This document shows, piece after piece, positions 722 through 63,205 of a stretch of DNA of 64,000 nt. The first letter of the stretch is position 1. Each line of letters begins with the position of its first letter. The notes beneath the pieces were generated by a model, which was not told the origin of the DNA, did no database searches, and worked only from the letters and a program-made list of their open reading frames with translations. A program made the translations under genes and the position numbers. Where the stretch lies: positions 11,471,726 through 11,535,725 of the forward strand of contig OY987232.1 in the NCBI GenBank assembly GCA_963920705.1. The letters run 5' to 3'. The stretch is from Odiellus spinosus (Eukaryota; Arthropoda; Arachnida; Opiliones; Phalangiidae).

Positions 722-1323
722 GTAAGACCTTTTTTGCTGTGTTTTTAAAAATGTGTTACAGGTTTTATGAACTTGTCCATAAACTCAAGGAGGATAGATG
801 TTGGAATTCGAATCGTTAAGTGTGTCGTGGTGAATTAAGAAATTAGGTTTTAAACTAAAACTAATTTGTTAATGTTGTAATAGTTTCCGTGGAATTCCTA
901 AATCAAAATGAGCTAATTTAACAATTTGCACTTTCATCGTTGAAACAAAGAAAAATAAAGATTAATTAAACGAAATATAATCTAAACAGATAATCCCAGA
1001 CCCTTTTTCTAGTATTAAGATTTAAAAATCACCTGGAGATAAGTAATGACAAGGATATTGAATTATAGAAAATTATTAATTTAATTATCATAACAAGTTG
1101 TCCATTGATACCGGATAATTTTAGTTTAGTTTTATAAAAAGACGCGACTATACCAAGATGACACGTGAGATCATGAGTGAGTCCAAATCAAGAGAGTCGC
1201 GAAAATTATCTTCCTTCTCGAAACATTCTAGCTGGGTCAGAAGCCACCGAAATACTTTCTCGCCTCCTCCTATCGTCGTTGACTCGTGCCTTGTCAAGAT
1301 CTGCCCTTTTGGTCACTGTCGCG
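722..1323 (+). other. Intron 2 head, no gene
   Basis: AT-rich. At about 880-910 a stretch resembles the start of the LTR at 3155. Otherwise nothing recognised. Confidence 0.5.
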
Positions 1324-1385
1324 TTGTAGGAACTATTGAATAATTAACTACTGTTCAACTTAATTAATTTATTAATTTAACAATA
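1324..1385 (-). repeat. 62-bp direct repeat, right end of Gag-MBD element (LTR-like)
   Basis: Identical to 2443-2504. Read on the minus strand its core starts TGTTAAAT and ends CCTACA (58 bp, TG...CA), as an LTR would. It contains the stop codon of the Gag-MBD ORF. No purine-rich tract precedes it and no target-site duplication is visible. Confidence 0.8.
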
Positions 1386-2325
1386 CGTCGTGAATATCGC
1401 TCGGTGTGATTCCTGATATTAAACTTTCGGTTCTATTCTTCTTTGAGAAATTAAATAAGTTCGGTTTATATTCTAAATTCCTTTCTTCATGGTATCGTTT
1501 GGCGTCTGGTTCTGATCTAATTTTCTTTCCTTCTTTATCATAATAATAAATGTCCACCTGTCCTTTGCTAGCTCCCTTCTGTCTGATTTTTACCTCCCTT
1601 CTCCAGCCATCACCGGTTTTCAGTTCGCTTTCTTTTGTTTTTGTTTCGTGTGTAACATTAGTATTTGTCAAAACGATATCATTATTTTCGTCGCCATTCT
1701 CAATATCGACCCCCTTGTTTATTTTAATGTGTTGGGCACCTATTTCTTGGTTTTTCTCCTCCCTTTTTGTCGTTTTTGACTGTGCAACTAGTGAGTCTAC
1801 CTCTTCGGTGTTTTCTTCCATTTTTGTCTTATTTGGTTGTATCAATGAAATATCCTTTTCTGCCACTTTTTCTCCAGCTTCTTCCAATTGTCTTTTCACA
1901 TTGTACAATCGGCCAATAAATGAAGGCATGCTCTCTCCTATGTTATATTCCAAGGAGTAGAATTCTTTTCTTAACGTGGCAATACGAGCTCTAGATTTGG
2001 GTTCAAACGCGTTTCTTAGAGCCTCCCATACACCAGCTCCAGTTGTTTCTCCTTCGATTAAACTGCGTATGTCCTCGTGTATTCCCATCGCTATCGTTGA
2101 GTAGGCCTTGGACTTTCGTAAATTATATCTTTGCATAAGCTCTACCTTGTCTGATGCCGGTGGCACTTCTGTTGTATTGACTATTTCCCACAAGCCACGA
2201 TCTCTTAAGATCATCTCCATTTCGAATTTCCACGTCCTGTAGTTTTCTGAATGTAATTTCGTCATTTGGCTCACCACTATCAACGAACCTCCTCCACCGT
2301 CCGCCATCTTGAATCTATTATGCAC
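1372..2325 (-). CDS. Copia-type Gag N-terminus fused to a methyl-CpG-binding domain
   Basis: Intact 317-codon ORF inside intron 2 of the phosphatase gene, antisense to it. Residues about 7-161 are Copia/Ty1 Gag: MADGGGG start, ENYRTWKFEMEMILRDRGLW, YNLRKSKAYSTIAM and AKDIS-like end, matching the decayed Gag at 3.7-4.3 kb. Residues 162-237 are a Lys/Glu-rich linker with no Gag similarity. Residues about 238-296 read as an MBD: GWRREVKIRQKGASKG, DIYYYDKEGKKIRS and LEYKPNLFNFS. Arg248, Asp258, Tyr260 and Arg270 occupy the positions of the DNA-contacting residues of MeCP2/MBD proteins. The ORF runs into a 62-bp repeat and stops there (LLN-stop). No protease, integrase or RT follows. It could be a captured host exon or a chimeric retrocopy. 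Whether it is expressed is unknown. Confidence 0.78.
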   Translation of the reverse strand: MHNRFKMADGGGGSLIVVSQMTKLHSENYRTWKFEMEMILRDRGLWEIVNTTEVPPASDKVELMQRYNLRKSKAYSTIAMGIHEDIRSLIEGETTGAGVWEALRNAFEPKSRARIATLRKEFYSLEYNIGESMPSFIGRLYNVKRQLEEAGEKVAEKDISLIQPNKTKMEENTEEVDSLVAQSKTTKREEKNQEIGAQHIKINKGVDIENGDENNDIVLTNTNVTHETKTKESELKTGDGWRREVKIRQKGASKGQVDIYYYDKEGKKIRSEPDAKRYHEERNLEYKPNLFNFSKKNRTESLISGITPSDIHDVLLN

Positions 2326-2428
2326 GTCTGCCAGGCCAGTTCATTTATGTCCAATTTCAATTCTCACGATTGATCAACTAATTATACTGTTCCTTAATCT
2401 TTGTTAATTATTCATATTCAATAACCAC

Positions 2429-2440
2429 GCTCTGCTACCA
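2429..2440 (-). promoter_or_regulatory. Primer-binding site of Gag-MBD element
   Basis: Minus strand TGGTAGCAGAGC; the first 11 bases are complementary to the 3' end of initiator-Met tRNA (CTCTGCTACCA). It lies between the 62-bp repeat and the Gag start, in the order LTR-PBS-gag. Confidence 0.7.
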
Positions 2441-2504: not shown

Positions 2505-3154
2505 TAATAGAAAACAACAACTGTACTACCCCATAGCTGAGGAGAGAGTGAGTATATCTGGTCTTAATCGAAGCAGACGACACTTCCCACACCGGTCACA
2601 TGATTTTCTAACCAATCAAAAAAAATGTTGATATTGTAGGTCAAAGGGTTTACATTCCGCCCACACGCGTCCTCTTTTTAAGGTGAAATTGGTACGGCTT
2701 TCGCTGCGGGAAAAGGGAAAATAGAAAAAACGAAGTTCGTTTGAACGGTTGTTCTCAGAAAGTTTTTTCGATGTAGACAACGTGATTAGTAGATATACGC
2801 GTTGGTGCTACAACTTGCGAAATTTGGCGAGGTTCCTATTTTCGTGAAGGAAATTTTATTTTCGCGCGAAACGTGTTAGCGCATAGAAAATTCGCTCGTT
2901 CTACGTGAAAACCATACACATATAATTTGTTTTGCCAAGACAGTCATATAACAGATGAAAATGAGTGATTTAAAACAGCAGTTACTGCTCTTACACTAGA
3001 GAAAAATCGGTCCTTAAGGGTGAGGGAATTATTCCGCAAGAGACAGCAGCGAGAAGATTTCACAATTTGTTAGTGGATTTGAAAATTTCCAATCATAGGG
3101 TTAGCTTGTTTAACTCAGATTTCTATGATAACAATAAGGATATTTCAATTACAT
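2505..3154. other. Intron 2, between two Copia remnants
   Basis: No coding similarity seen. On the minus strand it is where the rest of the 5' LTR of the Gag-MBD element would be expected if its LTR is longer than 62 bp. Confidence 0.4.
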
Positions 3155-3581: not shown

Positions 3582-3691
3582 TTAAGGTAGATTTTATGGA
3601 GTGTTTTTGATTACTTTCACTGTGGAGAGATTGAATTCAAGAAACCCTGGAAGTCGGCTTTTGTGCATAGCGGCGATTTTCGACAAACAGA

Positions 3692-4877
3692 ATGGCGGAA
3701 CGTTCGGGCGATTCGTTTTTTGTGAATCATGTCACGCTTTTAACATCCGACAATTATCGTAATTAGAGTTTTGAAATGGAACATCGACTGAGAACTCAAG
3801 ATTTATGGAACATTGTTCGAGGTACTGAGAAATTTCCTAAGGGGGAGGCAGTTACTGAAGAGATTCAATGGAAATTCAAGTTGCGAGAGGTCAAGGCTTA
3901 CTCAATGATTGCGCTGTCAGTTAGTCAAGAACTTCGATGTTTAAGTGGAGAAGCTGACACGTCGGGTCTGGCCTGGGAAGCATTAAAGGAAGCATTTTTT
4001 CCTGGATCAAGAGCACGCATAGAATGAAGAATTTCATACAATGAGTTATCAAGATGGAGAATCAATTCCGGCGTTTCTTGGAAGACGTTATGGTGTAAAA
4101 ATTCAATTAGAGGAAGCTGGGGAAACTGTACAGGACAAAGACATTTCATATAGAATGATTCGGAAGTTACCTAAAAGTTATGAAAATCTCGTACAGCAAA
4201 TATATCATTACGAAGATAAGATGTTCACTCCACAGAATATCAAGAAGACGCTAATAGCGGAATATAGCCGACAAATCCTAATCAACCAAGGAAGTTCAGA
4301 TCAATCAAGTGCCTTATCGACACAAGTTCAAAATAAGCGATTGTAGTATGACCAATTACGTCCTGGTATTGAAAAATTTAAATTTAAAGGTAGATGTCAC
4401 AAATGTCAGATAATTGGTCGCCAAAGATTGTAGGCGAGAACAGTCAAATTCTGATCAATGTAGTTATCACGAAAGAAATTGAAACAATGACGATTTTCGG
4501 CGCAGATATAACAATTCAAGAGACTATGGCAATAAATATGCGTATTTCGTATCGGCCCAATCCCCATCTGTTGCAACAAATGAATGGATTATAGATACAG
4601 CGGCTACTCACCATTTCTGTCATCAACGGGAATTGTTTGCAACGTATACAGATTTCGACGCTGAAGCAACCTATTAAAGTTGGCGGTAAGAATAGAAACA
4701 TTTGAGTTAAAAGAGGTGCTATATACACCAGGAATGAAGAGAAATCTAATATAAGGCAGAATCATAGATCAATCTGGGCATAAGGGCATCGTAACAAATT
4801 CAAAGTATACCGTTTGCGATAATAAAGGAAGATTTTTGTGGCAAGCAAATTTATCATGTGAAAATTTATACACGCGT
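3692..4877 (+). pseudogene. Copia gag-protease pseudogene
   Basis: Starts MAERSGDSFFVNHVTLLTSDN; the conserved Trp of the NYxxW motif is a TAG stop. It continues through EMEHRLRTQDLWNIVRGTEK, LPKSYENLVQQI and a broken zinc knuckle (CHKC near 4395). It then runs out of frame into WIIDTAATHHF, the aspartic protease site with DTAA in place of DSGA, and LYTPGMKRNLI before integrase. Several stops and frameshifts make it dead. It ends abruptly near 4877, where an oppositely oriented gag begins. Confidence 0.8.
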
Positions 4878-5365
4878 CTTGATTCAATTGTACATCTGAA
4901 GTTTTCAAAACTCTCTGGCAAACTATGCAAGAGAATGATCATCAGTAAATCATTATTGATTTCCAAGTCTGTTTTGTGTAACTTGTCAACTGCGAAACAT
5001 TATCTTGGACATTCTTTCCTTCTCTCATCTTGTTTAGAGTTAACCACATCAGGAGTAGCCTTTCGTGCGGGACTCATGGATGGTAAATGGCTTCCCATTT
5101 CTTCCAACCTTCTCGTGCGGTGTCGCACAATTCGGAAGGACTGATGGCGCAGATTAGATCAGCTCTTGCTTTCTTATCACTGTTCACCCATGCCGCTACT
5201 TCGGTTGAATTTGTAGTAGTTGCTGTTGGTTTTACGTTGCTAATGTCCACATATCCCAAGGCGTCATTTTTGACCAAGAGGGCTTCCATCTGCAACTTTC
5301 ATGTGTCATAGTTCTCTTTTGTCAAAGTTGCAGTTGCAATTCTAACGTTATGACTTCCTGCCATT
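4878..5365 (-). pseudogene. Second Copia-type gag pseudogene, opposite strand
   Basis: Starts MAGSHNVRIATATLTKENYDT; the conserved Trp is a TGA stop. It continues KLQMEALLVKNDALGYVDIS, then in other frames DLEINNDLLMIILLHSLPES and FENFRCTIESR, the classical C-terminal Gag motif. It is a different Copia family from the upstream plus-strand copy. Its leader, primer-binding site and LTR lie at higher coordinates and are split by a GC-rich insertion. Confidence 0.78.
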
Positions 5366-25138: not shown

Positions 25139-26117
25139 AGCTTATGAGTTTTTATCATCGATACTCTGTTCTTTAACAACCCAGGGTACGTTCAGTTAAC
25201 CACAAAATACGCATCGATGCATATTGGAAAAATCGAAACTGTTACTTGTACACCTTTTTTGTATTGCAACAGGGCGCCAAAGGATTTGAAAAGCCCGCCA
25301 GATTTTTAGCTTAGTAGGTTTGGTGGCGCCCTCTTGCATTTTCCCTCCCAAATCTTTCTTATTAGTAACACAAATGTAAAAAGATCAGTTCCATCCTTGC
25401 TCCGCTGACAGGTTAGCTTCTCCAAAAATTACTGTAAAGTTTTTCTCTTTTCAAGAATTTCGAGTCTGAGATTTAAGAGTTAAAATAACTCAATTGTCAT
25501 ATTAGGTATTCAGTAAGAAAAATATATAATTTTTGGACGTCCTTATTCTATAAGAAGCCAACGCTTTACCTAGTCCTAGGCAAGATGAAACCTAAGTATA
25601 AGGTGAGTTCAAGTTGAATCTCATTATTAAGGGTTAAAATAAAAATTTTGACATTGAACGAATTCGTTCCCCAATGAAGGGAATTTAAATAAACTAAATA
25701 AAATTAGCAAATAATCTTAGTTGACATTAGGCTTAGGAGATAATAATAAGAAATTGTAACAGTGGGTTTAAACTTAAACAGTAGGCTTCCCTGAAGTGGG
25801 AATATTTAGAGGTACAAAGTTTAAGTCTGTTACAGTATTTACAGTTTTATGTGGCGATGCTCATCGATAGTGCATCAAGCTCATTGGCTCAATGAGCTAA
25901 TTAGATAAGTTTGGGATATTTTAGGTAAACATATTGTAACCAATATTTTCCTTTCTAATAAAGAATGTAATCTCTAGAGATCTTCATTAAATTAAGAGTT
26001 ACAGCGATAAATTGATTGGCTGTTATTGGTCTATAAGAAAAAAGTGTCGACGATTGATTTGCTAAATTTGTTTATTTATAACACATACCTTTTGAGAAAG
26101 TAACAAAGAAAACGTAA

Positions 26118-26343
26118 CCCTTACCAAAATAAGTTATTCTTAAGTGGTCTTGGGGAAGTCTTTCGGGTGTCTTACGTAGTCTTAAGAGGTCTTGGGAAAG
26201 TCTTTCGGGTGTCTTACGTAGTCTTAAGAAGGGAAGTCTTTCATTGTGTGTAGTAGTCTCGGAGAAGTCGTAAAGACATCCCCAAGACTTTCGTAGCGTT
26301 CTTGAGGGCCTCTTCCGATCAGACCAACTTTTTTCCGTAAGGG
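26118..26343. mobile_element. CCCTTAC MITE, copy 3 (in duplication A)
   Basis: Ends CCCTTACC...CCGTAAGGG. Contains an internal repeat of about 60 bp (GTCTTGGGGAAGTCTTTCGG with the following GTGTCTTACGTAG, twice). TA flanks are not preserved. Confidence 0.75.
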
Positions 26344-27327
26344 AAATTACAATGTATCTCCTCCTTTCCAAACATCAACTACCGACTTCGCAATTCACAC
26401 AGTCGTATCAGTGTCCCCACCATGAAATATAGGTGGCATACAAGATACAGTGGATGTTTTTCCCCTCTGTCGCGTTCTTTATGTTTCGGAAGGGCTGGCA
26501 CTACATTTAAGAATTTTGGCACTAGTACCCGCCTGGTTAAACCCTAGTTCTCTCGTTGTATTGGGGGAAGCTGTAATGGGGAGAATATAATGATAAACTC
26601 TATCTGTTTGAAGGAAAATAGATAAATAATTAAGTGTCTTTCAGAATTAAATGTCATTGTGTGTTGCCTATACCAATTTTTTTTAAGGAAGCTAGTTCAT
26701 CTCATTGGTCTGTTTTTTCAAACTAAATTAGGAAAATTCGAAAATACTCAAAGAAAATTCTACTATCTGTGCAATATAATAAAGAATCTTAACTCAAAAA
26801 ATGAGAGCCTCCTCAATATGATGAATTTATAAACAAGTACAACATATATTCAACTTTAATTCCATAATTAAACGCGATATAAAATTTGCAAACAGCGTTT
26901 TGATTCACAGATACAATTGTCCTGAGCTACTACAATGTTTCTACCTTAACTGTGGTGTACGAAATAAGAGGAAAAGAGATATCTTTTATGTACGTCATTC
27001 TTTGTCTAAAATAATCTCAAGGATAGTATCACATATAAATAAATTTGGTGGCAAAAAAATTTATTTAATAATAGGTTACAGTTGCGAAATATTACTCATG
27101 CGATGAAAATTTTCGTTGTATATCTACAATTTTTTTATATTTATTATTTATTTTTATGATACTATTTTAATTGTTTTAAATCTCCAATCCTTGAACTATA
27201 TTAGTAATCTGATGTTCTCCATCAGATATAATGCAGTTGTAGTAGACGTAAAGTGTATTAACTTGTTGGTATCTGTACTGTTTTAATGCACTAAATATAT
27301 TCAATTAAATATGTGTATGTGTACATA
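26344..27327. other. Gene-free part of duplication A
   Basis: Downstream of the IR 3' end; closely matches 57736-58684. No gene seen. Confidence 0.5.
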
Positions 27328-27637
27328 CAGGGTGGAAACCTTCGCCGGCGTCCAGTCGAGATATTTCCCCTTACGCATTGTTGTTATTCAGTGAAATGTT
27401 AAGGGATTTACAGGCGCTATTGGGATCAGTTCACTTCAGTTCCACTTAATAATCAAAGGTTTCAGTTTTAATGTAGAGAAATGAAATGCATAAGTGAAAT
27501 CAATGACGGATTTATTTTAATTTAATTAGGAAAGAAAAAATGTCACTTGCGGAAACCAAATAGCCCAAATTGAAATTAATCAAACATTTCAAAATTTAAA
27601 CATTAAACTCTTCAAATTCATTTTTAATAACAAAGCA

Positions 27638-28738
27638 TTACATTAAATGTTCAAAATGTCTTCCGTCGACATTGACACATTGCCGACAACGGAATTGCCA
27701 GTTTTCTCTTTCCCGAGTTAACATCTCGGGAGAAACGAGAGCAGCCGCTTGCTGAATTCGGTCTCGAAGGCTATCAAGTGTTGGTGGCTCAGTGGCGTAC
27801 ACAAGGCTTTGTACATACCCCCAAAAGAAAAAATCCACCGGCGTTAAATCTGGCGAACGAGGTGGCCAAGCGACTGGACCACCACGACCTATCCATTGGG
27901 GACCGAATTCCGCGTCTAGCCAATCCCGAGAAACACGTGCAAAATGCGGTGGTGCACCATCGTGCTGGTACCAGACTCGTCTTCGTTCTGCTAAGGGAAG
28001 ATCGTCTAGGGCATCGGACACTACGGTGTTTAAGAGATCAACGTAACGATCTCCGTTTAGATGTTCTTCGAGAAAAACAGGTCCAATTACCCGATCACCT
28101 AACAATCCACACCAAACGTTTATCCTCCAGTTTTCTTGGTGATGATTCGCCCTTAGCCAATGAGGATTTTCCCTCGACCAGTAGTGCATGTTGTGGCGGT
28201 TAACTGTACCGTCCCGGTAAAACGTACACTCATCACTCGTAAGTACGTGGTTTAGGAAATTTCCATCGACTTCAATTTGGTCCAATACCCATCGGCAAAA
28301 CTCTACGCGTGGTCCAAAGTCTTGTGGTTTAAGATGTTGGTGAAGATGAATTTTGTAGGGGTGAAATCCTTCACCACGAAGAATTTTTAAGACCTTTGTA
28401 TGAGAACAATTTAATTCCGCTCCGATTGCCTGTGAACTGGTGTGGGGGTTTTCTACGATACGCTTTACTACTTCGTTTCGTCTGCCCGCCCCGTATCCAC
28501 CTCCTTGTACAACTGGCGGATGATGTTGATGTCGCACTGGTGCATTACGTCGAATCACCGTGCCTCTTTCAAGAAATCGGGTTATTGCGTTTAAAATTAC
28601 TTGATGCCCCGGATGTGGCCGGTTCGGAAACCTTTCTGCAAACGTCCTAGCAGCTAACCTTGCGTTTCTCTGACACTCTCCGTAAATGAAAAACATTTCA
28701 AGGTAATCCTCAAAACTGTACAAATCAATTTCAGCCAT
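27638..28738 (-). CDS. Mariner-group transposase, DD41D type, full-length ORF
   Basis: 366 codons, uninterrupted. An N-terminal helix-turn-helix region (MAEIDLYSFEDYLEMFFIYG, ARTFAERFPNR, the DUF4817-type start) is followed by a second DNA-binding helix region (SSQAIGAELNCSHTKVLKIL). The DDE core follows: HVLTSDECTFYRDG (first Asp), VWYQHDGAPPHF (second Asp) and PPRSPDLTPVDFFFWGYV (third Asp). I count 41 residues between the second and third Asp, hence DD41D. All three acidic residues are present. The start Met lies 28 bp after CGTTTTCTAGC in an arm-adjacent leader. It could encode active enzyme, but inner termini are lost, so the unit would have to move as the whole palindrome. Confidence 0.9.
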   Translation of the reverse strand: MAEIDLYSFEDYLEMFFIYGECQRNARLAARTFAERFPNRPHPGHQVILNAITRFLERGTVIRRNAPVRHQHHPPVVQGGGYGAGRRNEVVKRIVENPHTSSQAIGAELNCSHTKVLKILRGEGFHPYKIHLHQHLKPQDFGPRVEFCRWVLDQIEVDGNFLNHVLTSDECTFYRDGTVNRHNMHYWSRENPHWLRANHHQENWRINVWCGLLGDRVIGPVFLEEHLNGDRYVDLLNTVVSDALDDLPLAERRRVWYQHDGAPPHFARVSRDWLDAEFGPQWIGRGGPVAWPPRSPDLTPVDFFFWGYVQSLVYATEPPTLDSLRDRIQQAAALVSPEMLTRERENWQFRCRQCVNVDGRHFEHLM

Positions 28739-28853
28739 GTTTTACCAGATGTAAGCTAGAAAACGGACTGCTTTCTTCAATTAGAAACATGTAGCCTTTG
28801 TTTCGCATTTACTGTCTTGGTTTTTTATTGTTTTAAAAAATAAGAATTTTGTT

Positions 28854-29740
28854 GTGCATGACGTAGACTGCGAAACAAAGGTTAAATGTTTCTCATTGAA
28901 GAAAGCAGTCCGTTTTTTGTTGTTTGATTATGACCTAGACTGTTTTGTAAAAACCCGATTTCTTGAAAGAGGCACGGTGATTCGACGTAATGCACCAGTG
29001 CGACATCAACATCATCCGCCAGTTGTACAAGGAGGTGGACACGGGGCGGGCAGACGAAACGAAGTAGTAAGGCGTATCGTAGAAAACCCCCACACCAGTT
29101 CACGGGCAATCGGAGCGGAATTAAATTGTTCTCATACAAAGGTCTTAAAAATTCTTCGTGGTGAAGGATTTCACCCCTACAAAATTCATCTTCACCAACA
29201 TCTTAAACCACAAGACTTTGGACCACGCGTAGAGTTTTGCCGATGGGTATTGGACCAAATTGAAGTTGATGGAAATTTCCTAAACCACGTACTTACGAGT
29301 GATGAGTGTACGTTTTACCGGGACGGTACAGTTAACCACCACAACATGCACTACTGGTCGAGGGAAAATCCCCATTGGCTAAGGGCGAATCATCACCAAG
29401 AAAACTGGAGGATAAACGTTTGGTGTGGATTGTTAGGTGATCGGGTAATTGGACCTGTTTTTCTCGAAGAACATCTTATCGGAGATCGTTACGTTGATCT
29501 CTTAAACACCGTAGTGTCCGATGCCCTAGACGATCTTCCCTTACAGAACGAAGACGAGTCTGGTACCAGCGCCTTGTGTACGCCACTGAGCCACCAACAC
29601 TTGATAGCCTTCGAGACCGAATTCAGCAAGCGGCTGCTCTCGTTTCTCCCGAGATGATAACTCGAGAAAGAGAAAACTGGCAATTCCGTTGTCGGCAATG
29701 TGTCAATGTCGACGGAAGACATTTTGAACATTTAATGTAA
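28854..29740 (+). pseudogene. Second DD41D mariner transposase, broken copy
   Basis: Near-identical to the 27.6-kb ORF from FLERGTVIRRNAPVRHQHHP through VVSDALDDLPL. The natural N-terminus (about 60 residues including its Met) is replaced by unrelated codons. A single-base loss in CTTA(G)CAGAAC shifts the frame. A deletion of about 160 bp then joins GTACCAG to CCTTGTGTACGCC and removes the second and third catalytic Asp. The original C-terminus (RENWQFRCRQCVNVDGRHFE) is still readable in another frame to 29740. Dead. Confidence 0.88.
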
Positions 29741-30153
29741 TGCTTTGTTATTAAAAATGAATTTGAAGAGTTTAATGTTTAAATTTGGAAATGTTTGATT
29801 AACTTCAATTTGGGCTATTTGGTTTCCGCAAGTGACATCTTTTCTTTCCTAATTAAATTAAATTAAATCCGTCATTGATTTCACTTATGCATTTCATTTC
29901 TCTACATTAAAACTGAAACCTTTGATTATTAAGTGGAACTGAAGTGAACTGATCCCAATAGCGCCTGTAAATCCCTTATCATTTCACTGAATAACAACAA
30001 TGCGTAAGGGGAAGTATCTCGACTGGACGCCGGCGAAGGTTTCCACCCTGTATATCATCAGATAAAGGGAGTCTATAGCTTGGCTATATATAATAATCTT
30101 GAGCTATTTTTTCTCACATCGAATGAATGAAATATACCATTTATTTCGGTGTC

Positions 30154-30409
30154 TCAGGGAAATGGTTTTAGATATTTGGATTTTAGTTTCGGTTTGCGAT
30201 TCTTGTAAATTTCCTGGATTGTTTCGAGGAATTTGACGGCGATTGCCACAGCCAGTCCGTAGCCGTAGAATTGAAATGGAACGGACAAATCGGCCATTTC
30301 GTATGCGGTGAACAATTGAACATAATTATTAAATTTATTCTTTAATCGATATTCAACTTCCATTTGTTCGAAGTTATTTCCTATTGATCCTTCGTACAAT
30401 CGTAGTTCC
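30154..30409 (-). CDS. Ionotropic receptor-like gene, last exon (copy A)
   Basis: After a TTATTATTAG acceptor the first base completes Arg. The exon encodes ELRLYEGSIGNNFEQMEVEY, then FTAYEMADLSVPFQFYGYGL and AVAIAVKFLETIQEIYKNRK and stops at 30154-30156. The hydrophobic run LSVPFQFYGYGLAVAIAVKFLE sits where insect IRs have the last transmembrane helix (xLSLxxLxGxFxLLxxGxxLAxxxFxxE). Same phase (2) and length (256 nt) as copy B at 59085-59340. Confidence 0.6.
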
Positions 30410-30557
30410 CTAATAATAATAAAATTTATTTCAGAACATCTAATTATAGCAAAATATATAACGCTTGTATTTGTACGGGCGTGGATGGCAATTAAATTTG
30501 TTTTAAAATATTTTTTCGAGTTTTTAATGGTCCGCATATTTGTAATAAATTATTCAC

Positions 30558-30647
30558 CTTTCAAGAGTTATCAGTAATCGGTTATTAAACAACGGTGGGT
30601 ACATTGGTGATTTAAATATTTGTGGATTATTTATTCCAAATACCGAA
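30558..30647 (-). pseudogene. IR-like penultimate exon, copy A, acceptor lost
   Basis: 90 nt, coding SVFGINNPQIFKSPMYPPLF and NNRLLITLE plus AG, then donor GTGAAT. In copy B the exon follows TTTTTAG|G; here the same bases read TTTTTTT, so the AG acceptor is gone and the first codon of the exon, split with the previous one, changes too. The open frame itself remains intact. Normal splicing of this copy should skip the exon or use a cryptic site. Confidence 0.65.
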
Positions 30648-30756
30648 AAAAAAATGTGTTCGTAATCTGGCGTGAAATCAGATTATCAGCTGGGGTGTCT
30701 GAATCAGACCGCATTTTGAATTGTTCTTCGGTACGTGGTGTTTTAGTGTCTCTTAC

Positions 30757-30974
30757 CAGTTCATGATGGTTTCGTGTATTCGGGCATCGTACTTGAACGG
30801 GCTCGAATCGTTATTTCCCAGCCATACTAGCTGTGTTAAAAGTTTCTCCGCAGGTGATTTCTTCGAGACGTAAGCATATGTATCGAAAGAAGCATCAAGG
30901 AAGCTCGTCAACACCATCGTCCTTATTTTTCCGAATTCTAAATCAAATAGACGGACGTGTCTTAAGGGGAAGCC
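30757..30974 (-). CDS. IR-like exon (copy A)
   Basis: 218 nt from a CGCTCAG acceptor (phase 0) to AACTG|GTAAGA (phase 2). It encodes GFPLRHVRLFDLEFGKIRTM, SFLDASFDTYAYVSKKSPAE and LVWLGNNDSSPFKYDARIHE, ending TIMN plus TG. Placed between the channel exons at 36.3-37.0 kb and the last transmembrane exon, it corresponds to the second half of the ligand-binding domain, which is poorly conserved in IRs. Phase 0 fits the GAT|GTAGGC donor of the exon at 36325-36506 across a 5.35-kb intron. The acceptor lacks a pyrimidine tract. Confidence 0.55.
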
Positions 30975-32504
30975 CTGAGCGGTTTTTTTTTTTCTGGGCC
31001 ATACTTTTGACATGTTTTTCTTGGCTTCTAGGTCTATCAAAACAATTCCATGACTTGGTAATGAAACAAGAGACAATTCCAAGTAACTTTCCCGAGTAAC
31101 ATTTTCAATTACAGTTATAGATAATTTTTAAATTAACTTTAAACTTCTTTAAATAGTGAAAAGATAGGGTCATTTAGGCAGTATTTATTTGAAAACGAAT
31201 GAAGATTTTTTTCAGGCGGTATTTTTGGTTAACTATATGAGATATAATAACGTAACTTCCCCGAGAGACATTTAATTAAAAAAAATTGCATTAACATTTA
31301 ATTACTATTCAAAATAACCCAATGTTTGACATTTTTTCAGTTTTAAAATAAACTATTTAATATTTTTGTTATAAATAGGCTAATAATAGATGAGATAATC
31401 ATTTATCATACAAATTTTAGATTTCATTTATACCATAATTATTAACAGAGATATGACCATTTTACGTATCCAAGTTTTCCACTAAATTAACCAGAGACTA
31501 GTGAAGGATGAAAAGGGAATGCTAGTTGCCGAGAAAGAAAAGGGTTTTTTAGACTAGAGTCGCCATTCTCCGTCTACCGTGGCACTCCTTGTCGTCGAGC
31601 GCCTTACGTACTCCCTTTCCCCATCCGCTCCGTGCGTTTCCCCCGCGCATGTGGGACAAAAAAAAAAACAAGTTGGAGTGGCTTAAAAACCTTAAAACAG
31701 GCCCAGTAAAAACTTTAATAACTCTTTTAAAAATGATCGTAGAAATGAAAATTAAACTTAATTATGTTAATGGAGAGTTGCTTAATTAAGTAATATACAG
31801 GAAGAATTTTTTTGCCTTAAATATTGCTGAAAAAATGATCAAATATAGGCTATTTTGGGAAGATAATTAAAGTTAACGGTAGTTATTAAAACTAAATTAG
31901 TTTGGGGTAAAATGTTCAACATAAGCTCAAAAACGAAACCCTATTTAATTTTTGAAAAAATGTTAGTTCATTTGACCGGAAATCATACTTAAGTGGAGGT
32001 ATAAATCACGAATACTTAGCTTCGTAAAATTATCATAACTCACTTAATAATAATCGTAGCACTTAATTTAAACATTCGTACGATAGACGAATAACTTATC
32101 TATTACCCTATTTAGACAAAACACATTTAGTTCCGTTAATAAAGAAAGAAAAATTACGTCAAAGGGCAATTAAATGTTAATGCTATTTTTTAAATGAAAT
32201 GTCTCTCGGGTAATTTACGTTATCATATCTCATTTAGTAAACAGAAAAAACCACCTGAAAATAACTTTATTCGTTTTCGAATAAAACCTATCTAAGTGAC
32301 CCTATCTTTTCCCTATTTAGAGAAGTTTAAAGTTAATTTAAAAATTAAGTATAACCGTAATTGAAAATGTTACTCGGGGAAGTTATTTGGAATTGTCTCT
32401 TGTTTCATTATCAATAAGGAAATAGTTCTGATAGCCCTAGAAGCCAAGAAAAACGTGTCGAAAGTAGGGCCCAGAAAAAAAAAACGCTCCAGGCTTCCCC
32501 TTAA
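30962..32504. repeat. Long inverted repeat in IR intron (copy A)
   Basis: Arms about 30962-31310 and about 32150-32504 are reverse complements with scattered differences (for instance TTCTTGGCTTCTAGG, GAAACAAGAGACAATTCCAA, GATAGGGTCA, GAGAGACATTT), separated by about 840 bp. The left arm includes the acceptor and first bases of the exon starting at 30974. Fainter pairing may extend inward. Copy B has the same structure. Confidence 0.8.
31311..32149. other. Loop of the inverted repeat
   Basis: No coding recognised; an A-run near 31658 lies in a locally GC-richer stretch (31560-31650) rich in CCCTTTCCCC-like words. Confidence 0.5.
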
Positions 32505-32659
32505 ATTTCATATGAAATGAAAGGGTTCACTTTTTTTCTGCAAGATGGCACGATCTAAAGGAAACCAAACAGAATGCATAATAGTATAAGGGCGAGTATA
32601 GGAGATCAAACAAGTTATAATCTAATAATTGTTTATTAAATTAAAATTATTTAATTTTA

Positions 32660-33800
32660 GTGGGTTTGGTTGCCAAAACAATAATACAATAAAAGGCTTG
32701 CGGATTCACCGTTTTCGGCTACCGCGGCAGATTTTAGCCAAGGCATGGGAAGTAGCTTTAAGAATGGGGAAGAAATTCTTCAAAACTATAGTTCTTTGTT
32801 CATTTTAAACACGAAGATTACAAGACTATTCCTCAAGGTTTTGAAGGTAAGAAAAATGTTATACGTAAATACTGATTACAAATGTAGAAATATCAAAATT
32901 AATATCATTTATCAGATCAGTTCAAATATCCACCACGTCTGAGGCGACCGTTAGCAATTCCTAATCGTATCCATGGTAGAAAATCAACACAATCATCAGA
33001 AGCAGAGGTATTAGGAGAGGGTAAAAAGACTGAATAATATCAGCGGAGAAGAAAGGTGATGAAGATGTGGATTTAGAAGAACAATTGCTTGTGGATCACC
33101 AAATGGAAACAGGTAAAACTGATGAAAATTAAAATACCTACACCATTGTAACTTCAGAAAAAGGAATAATGGTAAATACGATCGAAAAGCACCCGTAGTA
33201 ACTTCTATTTGCGGAATATTAAAGAAACAAACTGTGGTGTGTGACTGAATTCAATCAATGGAACCAGAAATAGATGAACTTATTTACGAACTAGTTAAAG
33301 GTTAATTTTCAAGTACAAGCCCGTTACCAGTTGGTGACAGAATTTTACTTTCATCAATGAAACTTAAATTGGGTATTTTTTACTCAATTCTTGGAGCTCC
33401 TTCTCGGTCTTTGCCGACAGAGAACGTCTACGTATTTTAAACAAACCAAATGCCAATTAGCCACAGTCTTAGAATCGTCAGTTCTCTCTAGAGAAATTGA
33501 AATCTTTGAATCTACGCCCATTTGCTTTCATTATTATGTACGAGGACTTTCCTGGATTGTGCGGAGGTACACGTATAAAAGCCTAAGTGTCTGAAGTGTG
33601 AAATCAAAACATTTTTTTACTAAAAACGCACCGTGTGTACAAATTAGTGTTTTTCCTTCCGGTGTGATTACCATAATGAGCAAGGCATTTCGTGCAAAAT
33701 TATTTGATAAACAAATAAAAGAAAAGTTATAGAATAGTGCATTACCATATGTTGGTACCATAATGCTTGACAAATGGTTTGCCATTAAAAAATATATGTA
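32660..33800 (+). pseudogene. THAP-domain DDE_4 transposase pseudogene, copy A (5' part)
   Basis: A THAP zinc-finger remnant is readable: GCQNNNTIKGLRIHRFRLPR, AKAWEVALRMGKKFFKTIVL(C) and EDYKTIPQGFE before a GTAAG-type donor at 32848. Downstream words match Harbinger-related DDE_4 transposases: VGDRILLSSMKLKLG, RTFLDCAEVHV..KPKCLKC, FPSGVITIMSKAFRAKLFDK and GTIMLDKWFAIKKYM (family GDxIMxDKGFxI). Frames are broken. The C-terminal part is missing here, replaced after 34066 by LINE sequence. Confidence 0.7.
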
Positions 33801-33865
33801 GTGAAAGAGCGCTCAAATTAGATCACTTTTTATAAAAAGAAAGGCTAAAGATCGAAGCACTAAGG

Positions 33866-34066
33866 GGTGCCGGGAGTGGTGGCGCACTCCTGTAAACTGG
33901 CGTCTCAGTGGCAAGGTCTGGGTATTGTCCGAATCGCAGGTCCCTAGTCCATAGGGAGTGTTGCGAATGGTCCGCAACGGTATGGTCCTTCCTCTTCCCC
34001 TTTCCCTTCTCCATCCGTTGCGTGGGCAATTCCCACTCCTCATACTTGCGTAGTTTCTAAACTCAA
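33866..34066 (+). ncRNA. 7SL/SRP RNA-like sequence (possible SINE), copy A
   Basis: GTGCCGGGAGTGGTGGCGCA followed by CTCCTGTAAACTGG resembles the 5' Alu domain of 7SL RNA (GCCGGGCGNGGTGGCGC..GCCTGTAATC). Only about 200 bp and no S domain recognised, so a 7SL-derived SINE or RNA pseudogene is more likely than a working gene. It interrupts the THAP-DDE_4 relic, as seen from copy B. Confidence 0.4.
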
Positions 34067-57422: not shown

Positions 57423-57503
57423 ATAAGAAAAAGTGTCGACGATTGATTTGCTTTTGTTTATTTATAACACATACCTTTTGAGAAAGTAACAAACAAAACG
57501 TAA

Positions 57504-57735
57504 CTTTTACCAAAATAAGTTATTCTTAAGAGGTCTTGGGGAAGTCTTTCGGGTGTCTTGCGTAGTCTTAAGAGGTCTTGGGAAAGTCTTTCGGGTGTCT
57601 TACGTAGTCTTAAGAGGTCTTGGGGAAGTCTTTCATTGTGTGTAGTAGTCTCGGAGAAGTCGTAAAGACATCCCCAAGACTTTTGTAGCGTTCTTGAGGG
57701 CCTCTTCAGATCAGACCAACTTTTTTCCGTAAGGG
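57504..57735. mobile_element. CCCTTAC MITE, copy 4 (in duplication B)
   Basis: Partner of 26118-26343. The left end is mutated to CTTTTACC; the internal repeat is kept. Confidence 0.75.
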
Positions 57736-58716
57736 AAATTACAATGTATCTCCTTCTCCTTTCCAAACATCAACTACCGACTTCGCAATTCACACAGTCG
57801 TATCAGTGTCCCCACCATGAAATATAGGTGGCATACAAGAAACAGTGGATGTTTTTCCCCTCTGTCGCGTTCTTTATGTTTCGGAAGGCCTGGCACTACA
57901 TTTAAGAATTTTAGCACTAGTACCCGCCTGGTTAAACCCTAGTTCTCTCGTTGTATTGGGGGAAGCTGTAATGGGGATAATATAATGATAAACTATCTGT
58001 TTGAAGGAAAATAGATAAATAATTAAGTGTCTTTCAGAATTAAATGTCATTGTGTGTTGTCTATACCAATTTTTTTTAAGGAAGCGAGTTCATCTCATTG
58101 GTCTGTTTTTTCAAACTAATTTAGGAAAATTCGAAAATACTCAAAGAAAATTCTACTATCTGTGCAATATAATAAGGAATCTTAACTCAAAAAATGAGAG
58201 CCTCCTCAATATAATTAATTTATAAACAAGTACAACATAGATTTAAGTTTAATTCCATAATTAAACGCGATATAAAATTTGCAAACAGCTTTTGATTCAC
58301 AGATCCAATTGTCCTGAGCTACTACAATGTTTCTACCTTAACTGTAGTGTACGAAATAAGAGGAAAAGAGATATCTTTTATGTACGTCATTCTTTGTCTA
58401 AAATAATCTCAAGGATAGTATCACATATAAATAAATTTGGTGGCAAAAAATTTATTTAATAATAGGTTACAGTTGCGAAATATTACTCTTACAATGAAAA
58501 TTCTCGTTGTATTTCTACAATTTTTTTATATTTATTATTTATTTTTATAATACTAAATTAATTGTTTTAAATCTCCAAATCTACAAATAATGCTGTTGTA
58601 GTAGACGTAAAGTGTATTAACTTGTTGGTATCTGTACTGTTTTAATGCACTAAATAAATTCAATTAAATATGTGTATGGGTACATATATCATCAGATAAA
58701 GGGAGTCTAGCTTGGC

Positions 58717-59008: not shown

Positions 59009-59084
59009 GCTTGGCTATATATAATAATCTTGAGCTATTTTTTCTCACATCGAATGAATGAAATATACCATTTATTTCGGTGTC

Positions 59085-59340
59085 TCAGGGAAATGGTTGT
59101 AGATATTTGGATTTTAGTTTCGGTTTGCGATTCTTGTAAATTTCCTGGAGTGTTTCGAGGAATTTGACGGCGATTGCCACAGCCAGTCCGTAGCCGTAGA
59201 ATTGAAATGGAACGGACAAATCGGCCATTTCGTATGCGGTGAACAATTGAACATAATTATTAAATTTATTCTTTAATCGATATTCAACTTCCATTTGTTC
59301 GAAGTTATTTCCTATTGATCCTTCGTACAATCGTAGTTCC
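59085..59340 (-). CDS. IR-like last exon (copy B)
   Basis: 256 nt, same phase and acceptor as copy A. Encodes ELRLYEGSIGNNFEQMEVEY and the last transmembrane segment LSVPFQFYGYGLAVAIAVKF. Differs from copy A at very few codons (for example ETLQEI for ETIQEI). Confidence 0.6.
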
Positions 59341-59486
59341 CTAATAATAATAAAATTTATTTCAGAACATCTAATTATAGCAAAATATATAACGCTTGTA
59401 TTTGTACGGGCGTGGATGGCAATTAAATTTGTTTTAAAATATTTTTTCGAGTTTTTAATGGTCCGCATTTGTAATAAATTATTCAC

Positions 59487-59576
59487 CTTTCAAGAGTTAT
59501 CAGTAATCGGTTATTAAACAACGGTGGGTACATTGGTGATTTAAATATTTGTGGATTATTTATTCCAAATACCGAC
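59487..59576 (-). CDS. IR-like penultimate exon (copy B), intact acceptor
   Basis: 90 nt after TTTTTAG. Its first G completes TGG with the preceding exon (phase 2). It encodes SVFGINNPQIFKSPMYPPLF and NNRLLITLE plus AG, then GTGAAT. The P.lPLF..RLLITLE pattern resembles the IR stretch before the last helix (SPLxxxFNxxILRLxE). Confidence 0.6.
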
Positions 59577-59685
59577 CTAAAAATGTGTTCGTAATCTGGC
59601 GTGAAATCATATTATCAGCTGGGGTGTCTGAATCAGACCGCATTTTGAATTGTTCTTCGGTACGTGGTGTTTTAGTGTCTCTTAC

Positions 59686-59903
59686 CAGTTCATGATGGTT
59701 TCGTGTATTCGGGCATCGTACTTGAACGGGCTCGAATCGTTATTTCCCAGCCATACTAGCTGTGTTAAAAGATTATCCGCAGGTGATTCCTTCGAGATGT
59801 AAGCATATGTATCGAAAGAAACATCAAGGAAGCTCGTCAACACCATCGTCCTTATTTTTCCGAATTCTAAATCAAATAGACGGACGTGTCTTAAGGGGAA
59901 GCC
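59686..59903 (-). CDS. IR-like exon (copy B)
   Basis: 218 nt, same limits as 30757-30974, open, with few substitutions (SFLDVSFDTYAYISKESPAD). Upstream channel exons for this copy are not in the window, since the duplication ends at 63020. They would have to lie beyond 64 kb or be absent. Confidence 0.55.
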
Positions 59904-61435
59904 CTGAGCGTTTTTTTTTTTCTGGGCCATACTTTTGACATGTTTTTCTTGGCTTCTAGGTCTATCAAAACAATTCCATGACTTGGTAATGAAACAAGAG
60001 ACAATTCCAAGTAACTCTCCCGAGTAACATTTTCAATTACAGTTATAGATAATTTTTAAATTAACTTTAAACTTCTTTAAATAGTGAAAAGATAGGGTCA
60101 TTTAGGCAGTATTTATTTGAAAACGAATGAAGATTTTTTTCAGGCGGTATTTTTGGTTAACTATATGAGATATAATAACGTAACTTCCCCTAGAGACATT
60201 TAATTAAAAAAAAATTGCATTAACATTTAATTACCTTTCAAAATAACCCAATGTTTGACATTTTTTCAGTTTTAACCTATTTAATATTTTTGTTATAAAT
60301 AGGCTAATAATAGATGAGATAATAATTTATCATACGAATTTTAGATTTCATTTATACCATAATTATTAACAGAGATATGACCATTTTATGTATCCAAGTT
60401 TTCCACTAAATTAACCAGAGACTAGTGAAGGATGAAAAGGGAATGCTAGTTGCCGAGAAAGAAAAGTTTTTTTTAGGCTAGAGTCGCCATTCTCCTTCTA
60501 CCGTGGCACTCCTTGTCGTCGAGCGCCTTACTTACTCCCTTTCCCCATCCGCTCCGTGCGTTTCCCCCGCGCATGTTGGACAAAAAAAAAAAAAAAAAAA
60601 AAAAAAAACAAGTTGGAGTGGCTTAAAAACCTTAAAACAGGCCCAGTAAAAACTTTAACTCTTTTAAAAATTATCGTATAAATGAAAATTAAACTTAATT
60701 ATGTTAATGGAGAGTTGCTTAATTAAGTAATATACAGGAAGAATTTTTTGCCTTAAATATTGCTGAAAAAAATGATCAAATATAGGCTATTTTGGGAAGA
60801 TAATTAAAGTTAACGGTAGTTATTAAAACTAAATTAGTTTGGGGTAAAATATTCAACATAATCTCAAAAACGAAACCCTAGTTAATTTTTGAAGAAATGT
60901 TAGTTCATTTGACCGGAAATCATACTTAAGTGGAGGTATAAATCACGAATACTTAGCTTCGTAAAATTATCATAATTCACTTAATAATAATCGTAGCACT
61001 TAATTTAAACATTCGTACGATAGACGAATAACTTATCTATTACTCTATTTAGACAAAACACATTTAGTTCCGTTAATAAAGAAAGAAAAATAACGTCAAA
61101 GGGCAATTAAATGTTAATGCTATTTTTTAAATGAAATGTCTCTCGGGTAATTTACGTTATCATATCTCATTTAGTAAACAGAATAAACCACCTGAAAATA
61201 ACTTTATTCGTTTTCGAATAAAACATACCTAAGTGACCCTATCTTTTCACTATTTAAAGAAGTTTAAAGTTAATTTGAAAATTAAGTATAACCGTAATTG
61301 AAAATGTTACTCGGGGAAGTTATTTGGAATTGTCTCTTGTTTCATTATCAATAAGGAAATAGTTCTGATAGCCCTAGAAGCCAAGAAAAACGTGTCGAAA
61401 GTAGGGCCCAAAAAAAAAACGCTCGAGGCTTCCCC
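59890..61435. repeat. Long inverted repeat in IR intron (copy B)
   Basis: Arms about 59890-60245 and about 61085-61435, equivalent to copy A. An A-run of about 25 lies in the loop at 60583-60608. Confidence 0.8.
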
Positions 61436-61594
61436 TTAAATTTCATAAGAAATGAAAGGGTTCACTTTTTTTCTACAAGATGGCACGATCTAAAGGAAAC
61501 CAAACAGAATGCATAATAGTATAAGGGCGAGTATAGGAGATCAATCAAGTTATAATCTAATAATTGTTTATTAAATTAAAATTATTTAATTTTA

Positions 61595-63205
61595 GTGGGT
61601 TTGGTTGCTAAAACAATAGTACAATAAAAGGCGTGCGGTTTCACCGTTTTCCGCTATCGCGGCAGATTTTAGCCAAGGCATGGGGAGCAGCTTTAAGAAT
61701 GGGGAAGAAATTCTTCAAAACTATAGTTCTTTGTTCATTTTAAACACGAAGATTGCAAGACTATTCCTCAAGGTTTTGAAGGTAAGAAAAATGTTATACG
61801 TAAATACTGATTACAAATGTAGAAATATCAAAATCAATATCATTTATCAGATCAGTTCAAATATCCACCACGTCTGAGACGACCTTTAGCAATTCCTAAT
61901 GAGAAATTAACTAATCGTATCCATGGTAGAAAATCAACACAATCATCAGAAGCAGAGGTATTAGGAGAGGGTAAAAAGACTGAATAATATTAGCGGAGAA
62001 GAAAGGTGATGAAGATGTGGATTTAGAAGAACAATTGCTTGTGGATCACCAAATGGAAACAGGTAAAACTGATAAAAATTAAAATACCTATACCATTGTA
62101 ACTTCAGAAAAAGGAATAATGGTAAATACGATCGAAAAGCATACGTAGTAACTTCTATTTGCGTAATATTAAAGAAACAAACTGTGGTGTTTGACTGAAT
62201 TCAATCAATGGAACCAGAAATAGATGAACTTATTTAAGAAATAGTTAAAGATTAATTTTCAAGTACAAGCCCGTTACCAGTTGGTGACAGAATTTTACTT
62301 TCATCAATGAAACTTAAATTGGGTATTTTTTACTCAATTCTTGGAGCTCCTTCTCGGTCTTAGCCGACAGAGAACGTCTACGTATTTTAAACTAACCAAA
62401 TGCCAATTAGCCACAGTCTTAGAATCGTCAGTTCTCTCTAGAGAAATTGAAATCTTTGAATCTACGCCCATTTGCTTTCATTATTATGTACGAGGACTTT
62501 CCTGGATTGTGCGGAGGTACACGTATAAAAGCCTAAGTGTCTGAAGTGTGAAATCAAAACATTTTTTTACTAAAAACGCACCGTGTAAATGTACAAATTA
62601 GTGTTTTTCCTTCCGGTGTGATTACCATGATGAGCAAGGCATTTCGTGCAAAATTATTTGATAAACAAATAAAAGAAAAGTTATAGAATAGTGCATTACC
62701 ATATGTTGGTGCCATAATGCTTAACAAATAGTTTGCCATTAAAAAATATATGTAGTGAAAGAGCGCTCAAATTAGATCAACTTTTATAAAAAGAAAGGCT
62801 AAAGATCAAAGCACTAAGGGGTGCCGGGAGTGGTGGCGCACTCCTGTAAACTGGCGTCTCAGTGGCAAGGTCTGGGCATTGTCCGAATCGCAGGTCCCTA
62901 GTCCATAGGGAGTGTTGCGAATGGTCCGCAACGGTATGGTCCTTCCTCTTCCCCTTTCCCTTCTCCATCCGTTGCGTGGGCAATTCCCACTCCTCATACC
63001 TGCGTAGTTTCTAAACTCAACTGACCCTCCCATCGCTCGTGGCTATAACCTTAGCCCTCGTACGGTTGCAAAAACATCACTGTTACGCAACGTTAGAAAA
63101 AAAGAACTAAGGGGTCAATTTTCCCCGGAAGAGACCTTGCTTACATCCAAAATAGCTTGTGTTAGAGTTCATGTTGAACGTATTCTGATTTACATAAATT
63201 ACAAA
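61595..63205 (+). pseudogene. THAP-domain DDE_4 transposase pseudogene, copy B, with C-terminal part
   Basis: Same THAP and DDE words as copy A. After the 7SL-like insertion (62821-63020) the relic resumes with RGQFSPEETLLTSKIACVRV and HVERI, the family's conserved IASVRIHVERxIxRIK end. So the pseudogene predates both the duplication and the 7SL-like insertion. A following frame at 63205-63440 has a GRKHDSMIY word of similar flavour but in the wrong order. Confidence 0.7.
62821..63020 (+). ncRNA. 7SL/SRP RNA-like sequence (possible SINE), copy B
   Basis: GTGCCGGGAGTGGTGGCGCA, then CTCCTGTAAACTGG, as in copy A. Both copies end at the border of the segmental duplication. Confidence 0.4.

Follow-up and report, generated by a model that had tools for sequence, protein, structure and literature searches.

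Non-autonomous LTR elements of the TRIM and TR-GAG types are short LTR elements that carry a Gag frame. Chromatin readers on retroelement integrases are also already known: according to the accessible part of PMC8632968, a chromodomain is located behind the SH3-like C-terminal domain (CTD) of the Ty3 integrase. Retrotransposons bearing a DNA methyltransferase (DNMT) include Ty3/Gypsy elements in the accessible part of PMC6338049, and Symbiodinium Copia elements without a DNMT domain appear in that of PMC5890265. No DNA-methylation reader on an integrase and no methyl-CpG-binding domain (MBD) on a Copia element was found among the papers listed by the literature searches, which covered few subscription papers, and the accessible portions of PMC8616336, PMC6338049, PMC5890265, PMC8632968 and PMC8885841 contain nothing on an MBD in an integrase. 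Here we analyse a frame from Odiellus spinosus that is, in the reading we consider likely, part of a young, internally deleted Copia remnant whose relatives carry an MBD2/3-type domain on the integrase tail, where it would serve as a tether to methylated CpG.

A deleted Copia element in the window

The window is a stretch of 64 kb (C8:11471726-11535725) of the 443-Mb genome. The first-pass annotation had pointed to a single intact frame starting as Copia Gag and continuing into an MBD with both arginine-finger positions, next to Copia pieces riddled with stops. Such a frame is indeed present on the minus strand at 1372..2307, with 311 codons counted from the first ATG (2307) and 322 codons from stop to stop (2340-1372), and it consists of a Gag front, an integrase-tail linker and the MBD. 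Pfam profile searches identified PF14223 (Retrotran_gag_2) at residues 30-154 (1846..2220, minus strand; E 3.5e-20) and PF01429 (MBD) at residues 223-291 (1435..1641, minus strand; E 5e-13, with 48.9 bits where the cut-off is 21). The MBD assignment also draws on alignment and on structure comparison, MBD2 being the top solved-structure match of the frame (E 3.8e-7). Both arginines are retained, together with the Asp and Tyr contact residues, and the adjoining Copia Gag is split by stops, as had been described. When the whole frame was folded from its single sequence, the pLDDT was 44. Protein searches returned 0 matches among 1127 candidates with the whole frame as query and 0 among 38 candidates with the MBD alone, and nothing useful was found in viral contigs, plasmids and Rfam.

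Only three frames of at least 200 codons were found within the window, the Gag-MBD frame and two others, a transposase with a DUF4817 match and its partly identical second copy. The two largely identical transposase copies (27325-30053) are inverted, with arms that are 98% complementary, and one of them keeps an intact 367-codon frame with the DUF4817 match. A direct duplication of several kb (30078-33935 and 59009-62889, about 29 kb apart) shows 96-99% identity in the blocks listed, and a second duplicated block (26067-27198 and 57453-58589, about 31 kb apart) shows 91-98%. Reading by eye further revealed a decayed Copia relative with Gag pieces and a primer-like site, TGGTAGAAGAGC, at 3690-4870 (plus strand), a fragment of a different Copia-type Gag at 4990-5360 (minus strand) and, at 62-720 upstream of the element, exon-like pieces of a putative receptor-type protein tyrosine phosphatase gene.

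Perfect direct repeats of 62 nt stand on either side of the Gag-MBD frame. In minus-strand orientation, the right-hand one is the end of a complete 5' LTR of 222 bp (2665-2444, TG...CA), which starts with TGTGGGCGG and ends with TTCCTACA, and the left-hand one is a 3' LTR remnant (1385-1325) that represents the final 61 bp of the LTR and is identical to the 5' copy. Behind the 5' LTR comes the primer binding site TGGTAGCAGAGCGTGG (2425..2440, minus strand), which we take to be initiator-tRNA-Met-like. The target-site duplication CGCGT lies beside the 3' LTR remnant (1320..1324) and beside the 5' LTR (2666..2670). This pentamer occurs four times in 1200-2900; the boundary of the element does not rest on it alone, because the LTRs of the siblings described below share both ends. 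The LTRs, the duplications and the primer site place the frame within an element that was inserted here and measures 1,341 bp, and the last codons and stop of the frame lie within the LTR remnant. The annotation had overlooked the flanking 222-bp LTR, the 61-bp remnant and the CGCGT duplications. An element with LTRs of 62 bp was also considered and was ruled out by the 222-bp LTR and the duplication, the sibling LTR ends being alike.

Two full-length siblings, at C8:11441183-11443900 (30 kb from the window element) and C4:4779126-4781843, contain one 1444-codon frame each. The sibling copies span about 4.9 kb, have LTR pairs without mismatch and 5-bp target duplications, and possess the same primer site. 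The Gag half of the query is 98% (C8) and 97% (C4) identical to the siblings and the MBD half 99%, the two halves matching separate parts of the sibling. Against the C4 sibling, the window element differs at 2 of 222 LTR bases and at 7 of 885 coding bases; against the C8 sibling, its LTR shows 3 mismatches and 4 gap columns, and 3 of 885 coding bases differ. The window element thus belongs to the same family as the siblings, with two deletions. The first is joined in frame at GGATATTTC (1847..1855, minus strand), 9 bp common to Gag and the sibling integrase tail, and takes out the remaining Gag, the Pol_BBD/protease region and the integrase core. The second connects the end of the MBD segment with LTR position ~161-162 (1385..1387, minus strand); here the RT is lost with the region that follows it, as are the polypurine tract and most of the 3' U3. 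Without integrase core, RT and polypurine tract, the element no longer has an autonomous gene set. The second deletion came, most simply, after insertion, given that nothing is missing from the 5' LTR. The Gag-MBD join, which had been put forward as a possible new variant, is therefore a deletion scar in a single copy: in the genome-wide search with the fused query, only one of 127 scored matches (759 candidates) covers it whole, so that the fusion is a one-off as far as seen.

An intact 311-codon frame next to decayed Copia could also be expected from a co-opted Gag-MBD host gene held by selection, the second idea put forward for this frame. We found no support for it and regard it as extremely improbable. 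The LTR, primer site and target duplication are all present, which is not the pattern of a domesticated Gag, and the LTR remnant itself supplies the stop codon of the frame. In addition, the whole query is covered only once in the genome, near-identical full-length siblings exist, and the few mismatches to these siblings indicate a young element, which can explain why its frame is still open. The host gene was accordingly rejected on the LTR, the target duplication, the copy number and the siblings, and the frame is treated below as part of a deleted Copia element.

Position of the MBD in full-length relatives

When pieces of the C8 sibling were scanned, the Pfam domains came in the order Gag, Pol_BBD, gag_pre-integrs, rve, SH3_retrovirus, MBD and RVT_2. 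This is the Ty1/Copia gene order, Gag followed by integrase and an RVT_2-type RT in one frame, with a protease deduced from Pol_BBD; the last piece of this sibling gave no Pfam match for RNase H. The MBD region extends approximately over residues 747-905 of 1444, the spacing being about 90 residues from SH3 to MBD and about 57 from MBD to RT. A position at the C-terminal end of the polyprotein is excluded by these coordinates and by the Pfam order. Since the MBD lies between SH3 and RT, it is by position the tail of the integrase. The retroelement does therefore carry a genuine MBD, as had been claimed, but the domain does not belong to Gag. The likening to chromodomain integrases was apt in that the MBD of the sibling follows the integrase SH3 domain; no chromodomain was found at E 0.1 in the Pfam scan of the sibling and family pieces, in which the domain at this place is an MBD.

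The same order of rve, SH3_retrovirus and MBD was obtained in families L037, L039, L048 and L056. RVT_2 follows the MBD within the piece in L037, L048 and L056, and the L039 piece stops at about the RT start. SH3-MBD was found in L105 and L106, and SH3-MBD-RVT_2 in L103, a piece of one unit of a tandem array. PF01429 scored above the cut-off in all 8 further stretches of the Odiellus spinosus genome that span the region.

Conservation, spread and origin of the element MBD

In an alignment of 12 MBDs, where the window element and the C8 sibling count as one family, W18, R25, G28, G32, D35, Y37, Y38, G43 and S48 are invariant and R47 is nearly so. In the alignment, R25 and R47 each correspond to an arginine of MBD2; the first of these arginines is substituted in chain 7mwm and the second in chain 7mwk, as seen in the match lines. 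We take these positions to be the methyl-CpG arginine fingers, and the two Arg fingers with the Asp and the Tyr to be the MBD contact residues. Among 22 distinct MBDs from 33 loci of the genome, none lacks the first Arg, the Asp or the Tyr, while four (L045, L046, L103 and L105) lack the second Arg; the other 18 keep all four contact residues.

The median identity between families was 0.43 for the MBD (115 pairs), 0.46 for the RT (98), 0.53 for the integrase part (75) and 0.25 for the linker (77), values that are rough for broken copies because the segments were cut at fixed distances. By these comparisons the MBD is nearly as conserved as the RT. The dN/dS ratio was 0.15-0.28 in three unsaturated MBD pairs (0.07/0.46 for L035-L050, 0.09/0.32 for L033-L034 and 0.13/0.50 for L045-L046), ratios that are only indicative because stops interrupt L034 and L045 and L050 is in part without a single clean frame; the closer pairs L053-L056 and L058-L052 have a dS of 0 and are uninformative. 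These ratios can be read as signs of purifying selection on the element MBD. A model of the 86-aa domain had a mean pLDDT of 74, and its best Foldseek matches were DNA-bound MBD3 and MBD2 (E 1.1e-4, TM by target ~0.7). Profile and model together suggest a domain of MBD2/3 type.

The absence of the second Arg in 4 of the 22 distinct MBDs, and the loss of contact residues in three members of their RT clade (P0005, P0006 and P0008), would be compatible with a fading relic from which methyl-CpG reading has gone. This explanation is nevertheless quite improbable, as 18 of 22 sequences have both Arg, the Asp and Tyr are found in 22 of 22, and MBD-bearing copies have LTRs free of mismatches in 13 of 17 pairs. 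A domain retained by the element is the reading that we follow.

With the MBD half as query, at least 150 scored matches (281 candidates) were obtained in the genome. A list compiled by hand from the matches listed, leaving aside the C4 array, one second fragment and the host exon, holds at least 128 MBD places, the window's own included and not each checked singly. Among the genome matches of the fused query, an MBD is at the expected position in all 25 Gag places that have an open frame of at least 1390 codons (23 by match, 2 by Pfam). Among the best 150 RVT_2 rows listed, 49 have an MBD just upstream, plus 2 by Pfam. When these rows are sorted by frame length, with absence meaning no MBD among the matches listed, the numbers with and without a listed MBD are 1 and 4 for frames of 1190-1300 codons, 0 and 9 for 1300-1345, 3 and 13 for 1345-1395, and 21 and 5 (L105 and L106 among the 5) for 1395-1480. 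The MBD thus looks like a trait of one Copia lineage and not of all Copia in the genome. LTRs paired cleanly in 17 of 20 fetched copies, of which 13 pairs are without mismatch and 16 have a 5-bp target duplication. Three pairs were left out, because C18:6259 and C5:4063 aligned through different shared repeats and C12:3436 lacked shared words. The MBD-Copia lineage is recently active in the Odiellus spinosus genome.

Two further observations were made on these copies. An array at G000:C4:3460872-4294620 contains at least 46 copies of a Copia SH3-MBD-RT fragment, often 17.5 kb apart and mostly with a 418-codon open frame; here a unit bearing a transposon has been amplified in tandem on a large scale, and the piece read (L103) has Asn in place of the second Arg finger. 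In the copies at C7:465 and C13:19122 (L089, L090, L101 and L102), the aligned LTRs begin with TA and not TG.

In a search of 5.8 billion proteins with the integrase-MBD-RT piece as query, PF01429 was present in 3 of the best 120 of 255 matches, P0002, whose source organism is the spider Araneus ventricosus, and P0001 and P0013, which carry the source label 'lgn'. An RT tree (FastTree, midpoint root) was built from 11 loci and 119 proteins and keeps 130 of 133 sequences, L046, L058 and the MBD-bearing P0013 having been dropped because their RT match was short or absent. The tips bearing a clear MBD are united in a single clade, which contains 21 of the 130 tips and has a support of 0.998; the sample is not neutral, because the proteins were gathered with an MBD-bearing query. 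P0004, P0005, P0006 and P0008 of the same clade score i-E 6e-11 to 5e-5 with a profile built from these MBDs, P0010 and P0027 are marginal (0.03 and 0.06), and P0003 and P0009, inside the clade, have no MBD by profile; no score below 0.1 was obtained for the 109 tips beyond the clade. This distribution fits an uptake that happened once, long ago, and was followed by decay in a side branch. P0005, P0006 and P0008 are distant members of the clade in which an MBD-like segment has lost contact residues, and may form a decay series.

The host has its own MBD2/3 gene at C4:6381897 (L104), in which reading places an intron inside the MBD; the element MBD, unlike it, is uninterrupted. Eight element families are identical to the host gene at 19-23 of 41 positions (46-56%) and to human MBD2 at 17-21 of 41, whereas the host MBD2/3 is identical to human MBD2 at 32 of 41 (78%). 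The low identity between element and host, compared with that between host and human, makes the uptake look old, and the sequences argue against a recent copy of the host's own MBD2/3 gene.

Target choice and comparison with known systems

In the full-length relatives, which form an animal Ty1/Copia lineage, the integrase region runs from the SH3-like CTD through an acidic/basic linker to the MBD. After processing of the polyprotein the MBD would stay on the integrase and would anchor the integration complex on DNA with methylated CpG, in the way that chromodomains hold Ty3/gypsy integrases to chromatin. By this analogy, the MBD most likely works like an integrase chromodomain, with integration tethered to methylated DNA, and the full-length relatives may sense methylated DNA when picking landing sites.

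The genome contains a host DNMT1 exon (E 2e-26 against DNMT1 chains) and a DNMT2 exon; no DNMT3 exon was among the 2 genome matches of an exon-wise search, which may miss one. The CpG o/e of the window is 0.98, without TpG excess, and heavy germline methylation is therefore unlikely; methylation is probably sparse. Three indirect tests, on target duplications, flank CpG and copy segregation, gave no target signal, though none of them is decisive. CpG-containing target duplications were found in 3 of 17 copies (the window's own included), a number close to our estimate of what base composition predicts. For the flanks of 17 insertions (300 + 300 bp), the CpG o/e ranges from 0.6 to 3.0 with a median of 1.04, against 0.955 across 212 window tiles, and gives no sign of CpG targeting; the flanks of the window element have a CpG o/e of 1.56. 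Finally, copies with and without the MBD are not segregated along contigs, as 60 of 107 nearest neighbours share a label against a shuffle mean of 56.9 and 338 of 1000 shuffles are as high as observed (140 of 150 RT rows, ten partial tail rows left out).

The outcome of these tests would also be expected if the integrase MBD had another job, such as general DNA or nuclear retention, or competition with host MBD2/3 against silencing. The host indeed owns an MBD2/3 gene and a DNMT1 exon, and the MBD is conserved whatever its role. On the other hand, the MBD is directly behind the integrase SH3 domain, which is the place of the Ty3 chromodomain, the domain that makes target contacts in the accessible part of PMC8632968. 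We consider another job rather unlikely and favour the tether to methylated CpG. The wider proposal, that one old MBD2/3-type uptake, inherited with the RT and kept by selection, lets an animal Copia lineage choose methylated DNA, is advanced tentatively, as somewhat short of an even chance.

If this were true, DNA methylation would serve both to mark a transposon for silencing and to signal where it can land. In animals that retain DNMT1, an integrase with an MBD makes it testable whether DNA methylation draws some transposons. The original lead is in any case corrected: the Gag fusion is a scar, and the true architecture is a trait of a Copia lineage in this genome, with a spider record in addition.

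Several known systems can be set beside this lineage. The window element resembles TRIM and TR-GAG elements in being short and in keeping a Gag frame; unlike them, it is found once, has a truncated 3' LTR and is not an amplified family. Among host proteins, MBD2/MBD3 is the closest to the element MBD in profile and fold. The integrase-MBD architecture is already present in public protein records under generic names: the Araneus ventricosus protein P0002 (and also P0001 and P0013) combines Copia polyprotein domains with PF01429 in the database annotation, and the part of its source name that is displayed, 'Retrovirus-related Pol polyprotein from transposon TNT 1-94', leaves the MBD unmentioned. 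DNMT-bearing retrotransposons, as described in the accessible part of de Mendoza 2018 (PMC5890265), are similar to MBD-Copia in having taken up a part of the host cytosine-methylation machinery; these elements (LINE, DIRS) carry writers, whereas MBD-Copia carries a reader on the integrase. Closest in layout are the chromodomain integrases of Ty3/gypsy elements (chromoviruses, Tf1, Ty3), which likewise have a small chromatin reader directly C-terminal to an SH3-like CTD, as the accessible part of PMC8632968 describes for Ty3. MBD-Copia differs from them in being Ty1/Copia, in having an MBD as its reader, and in a putative mark that lies on DNA and not on histones or TFIIIB.
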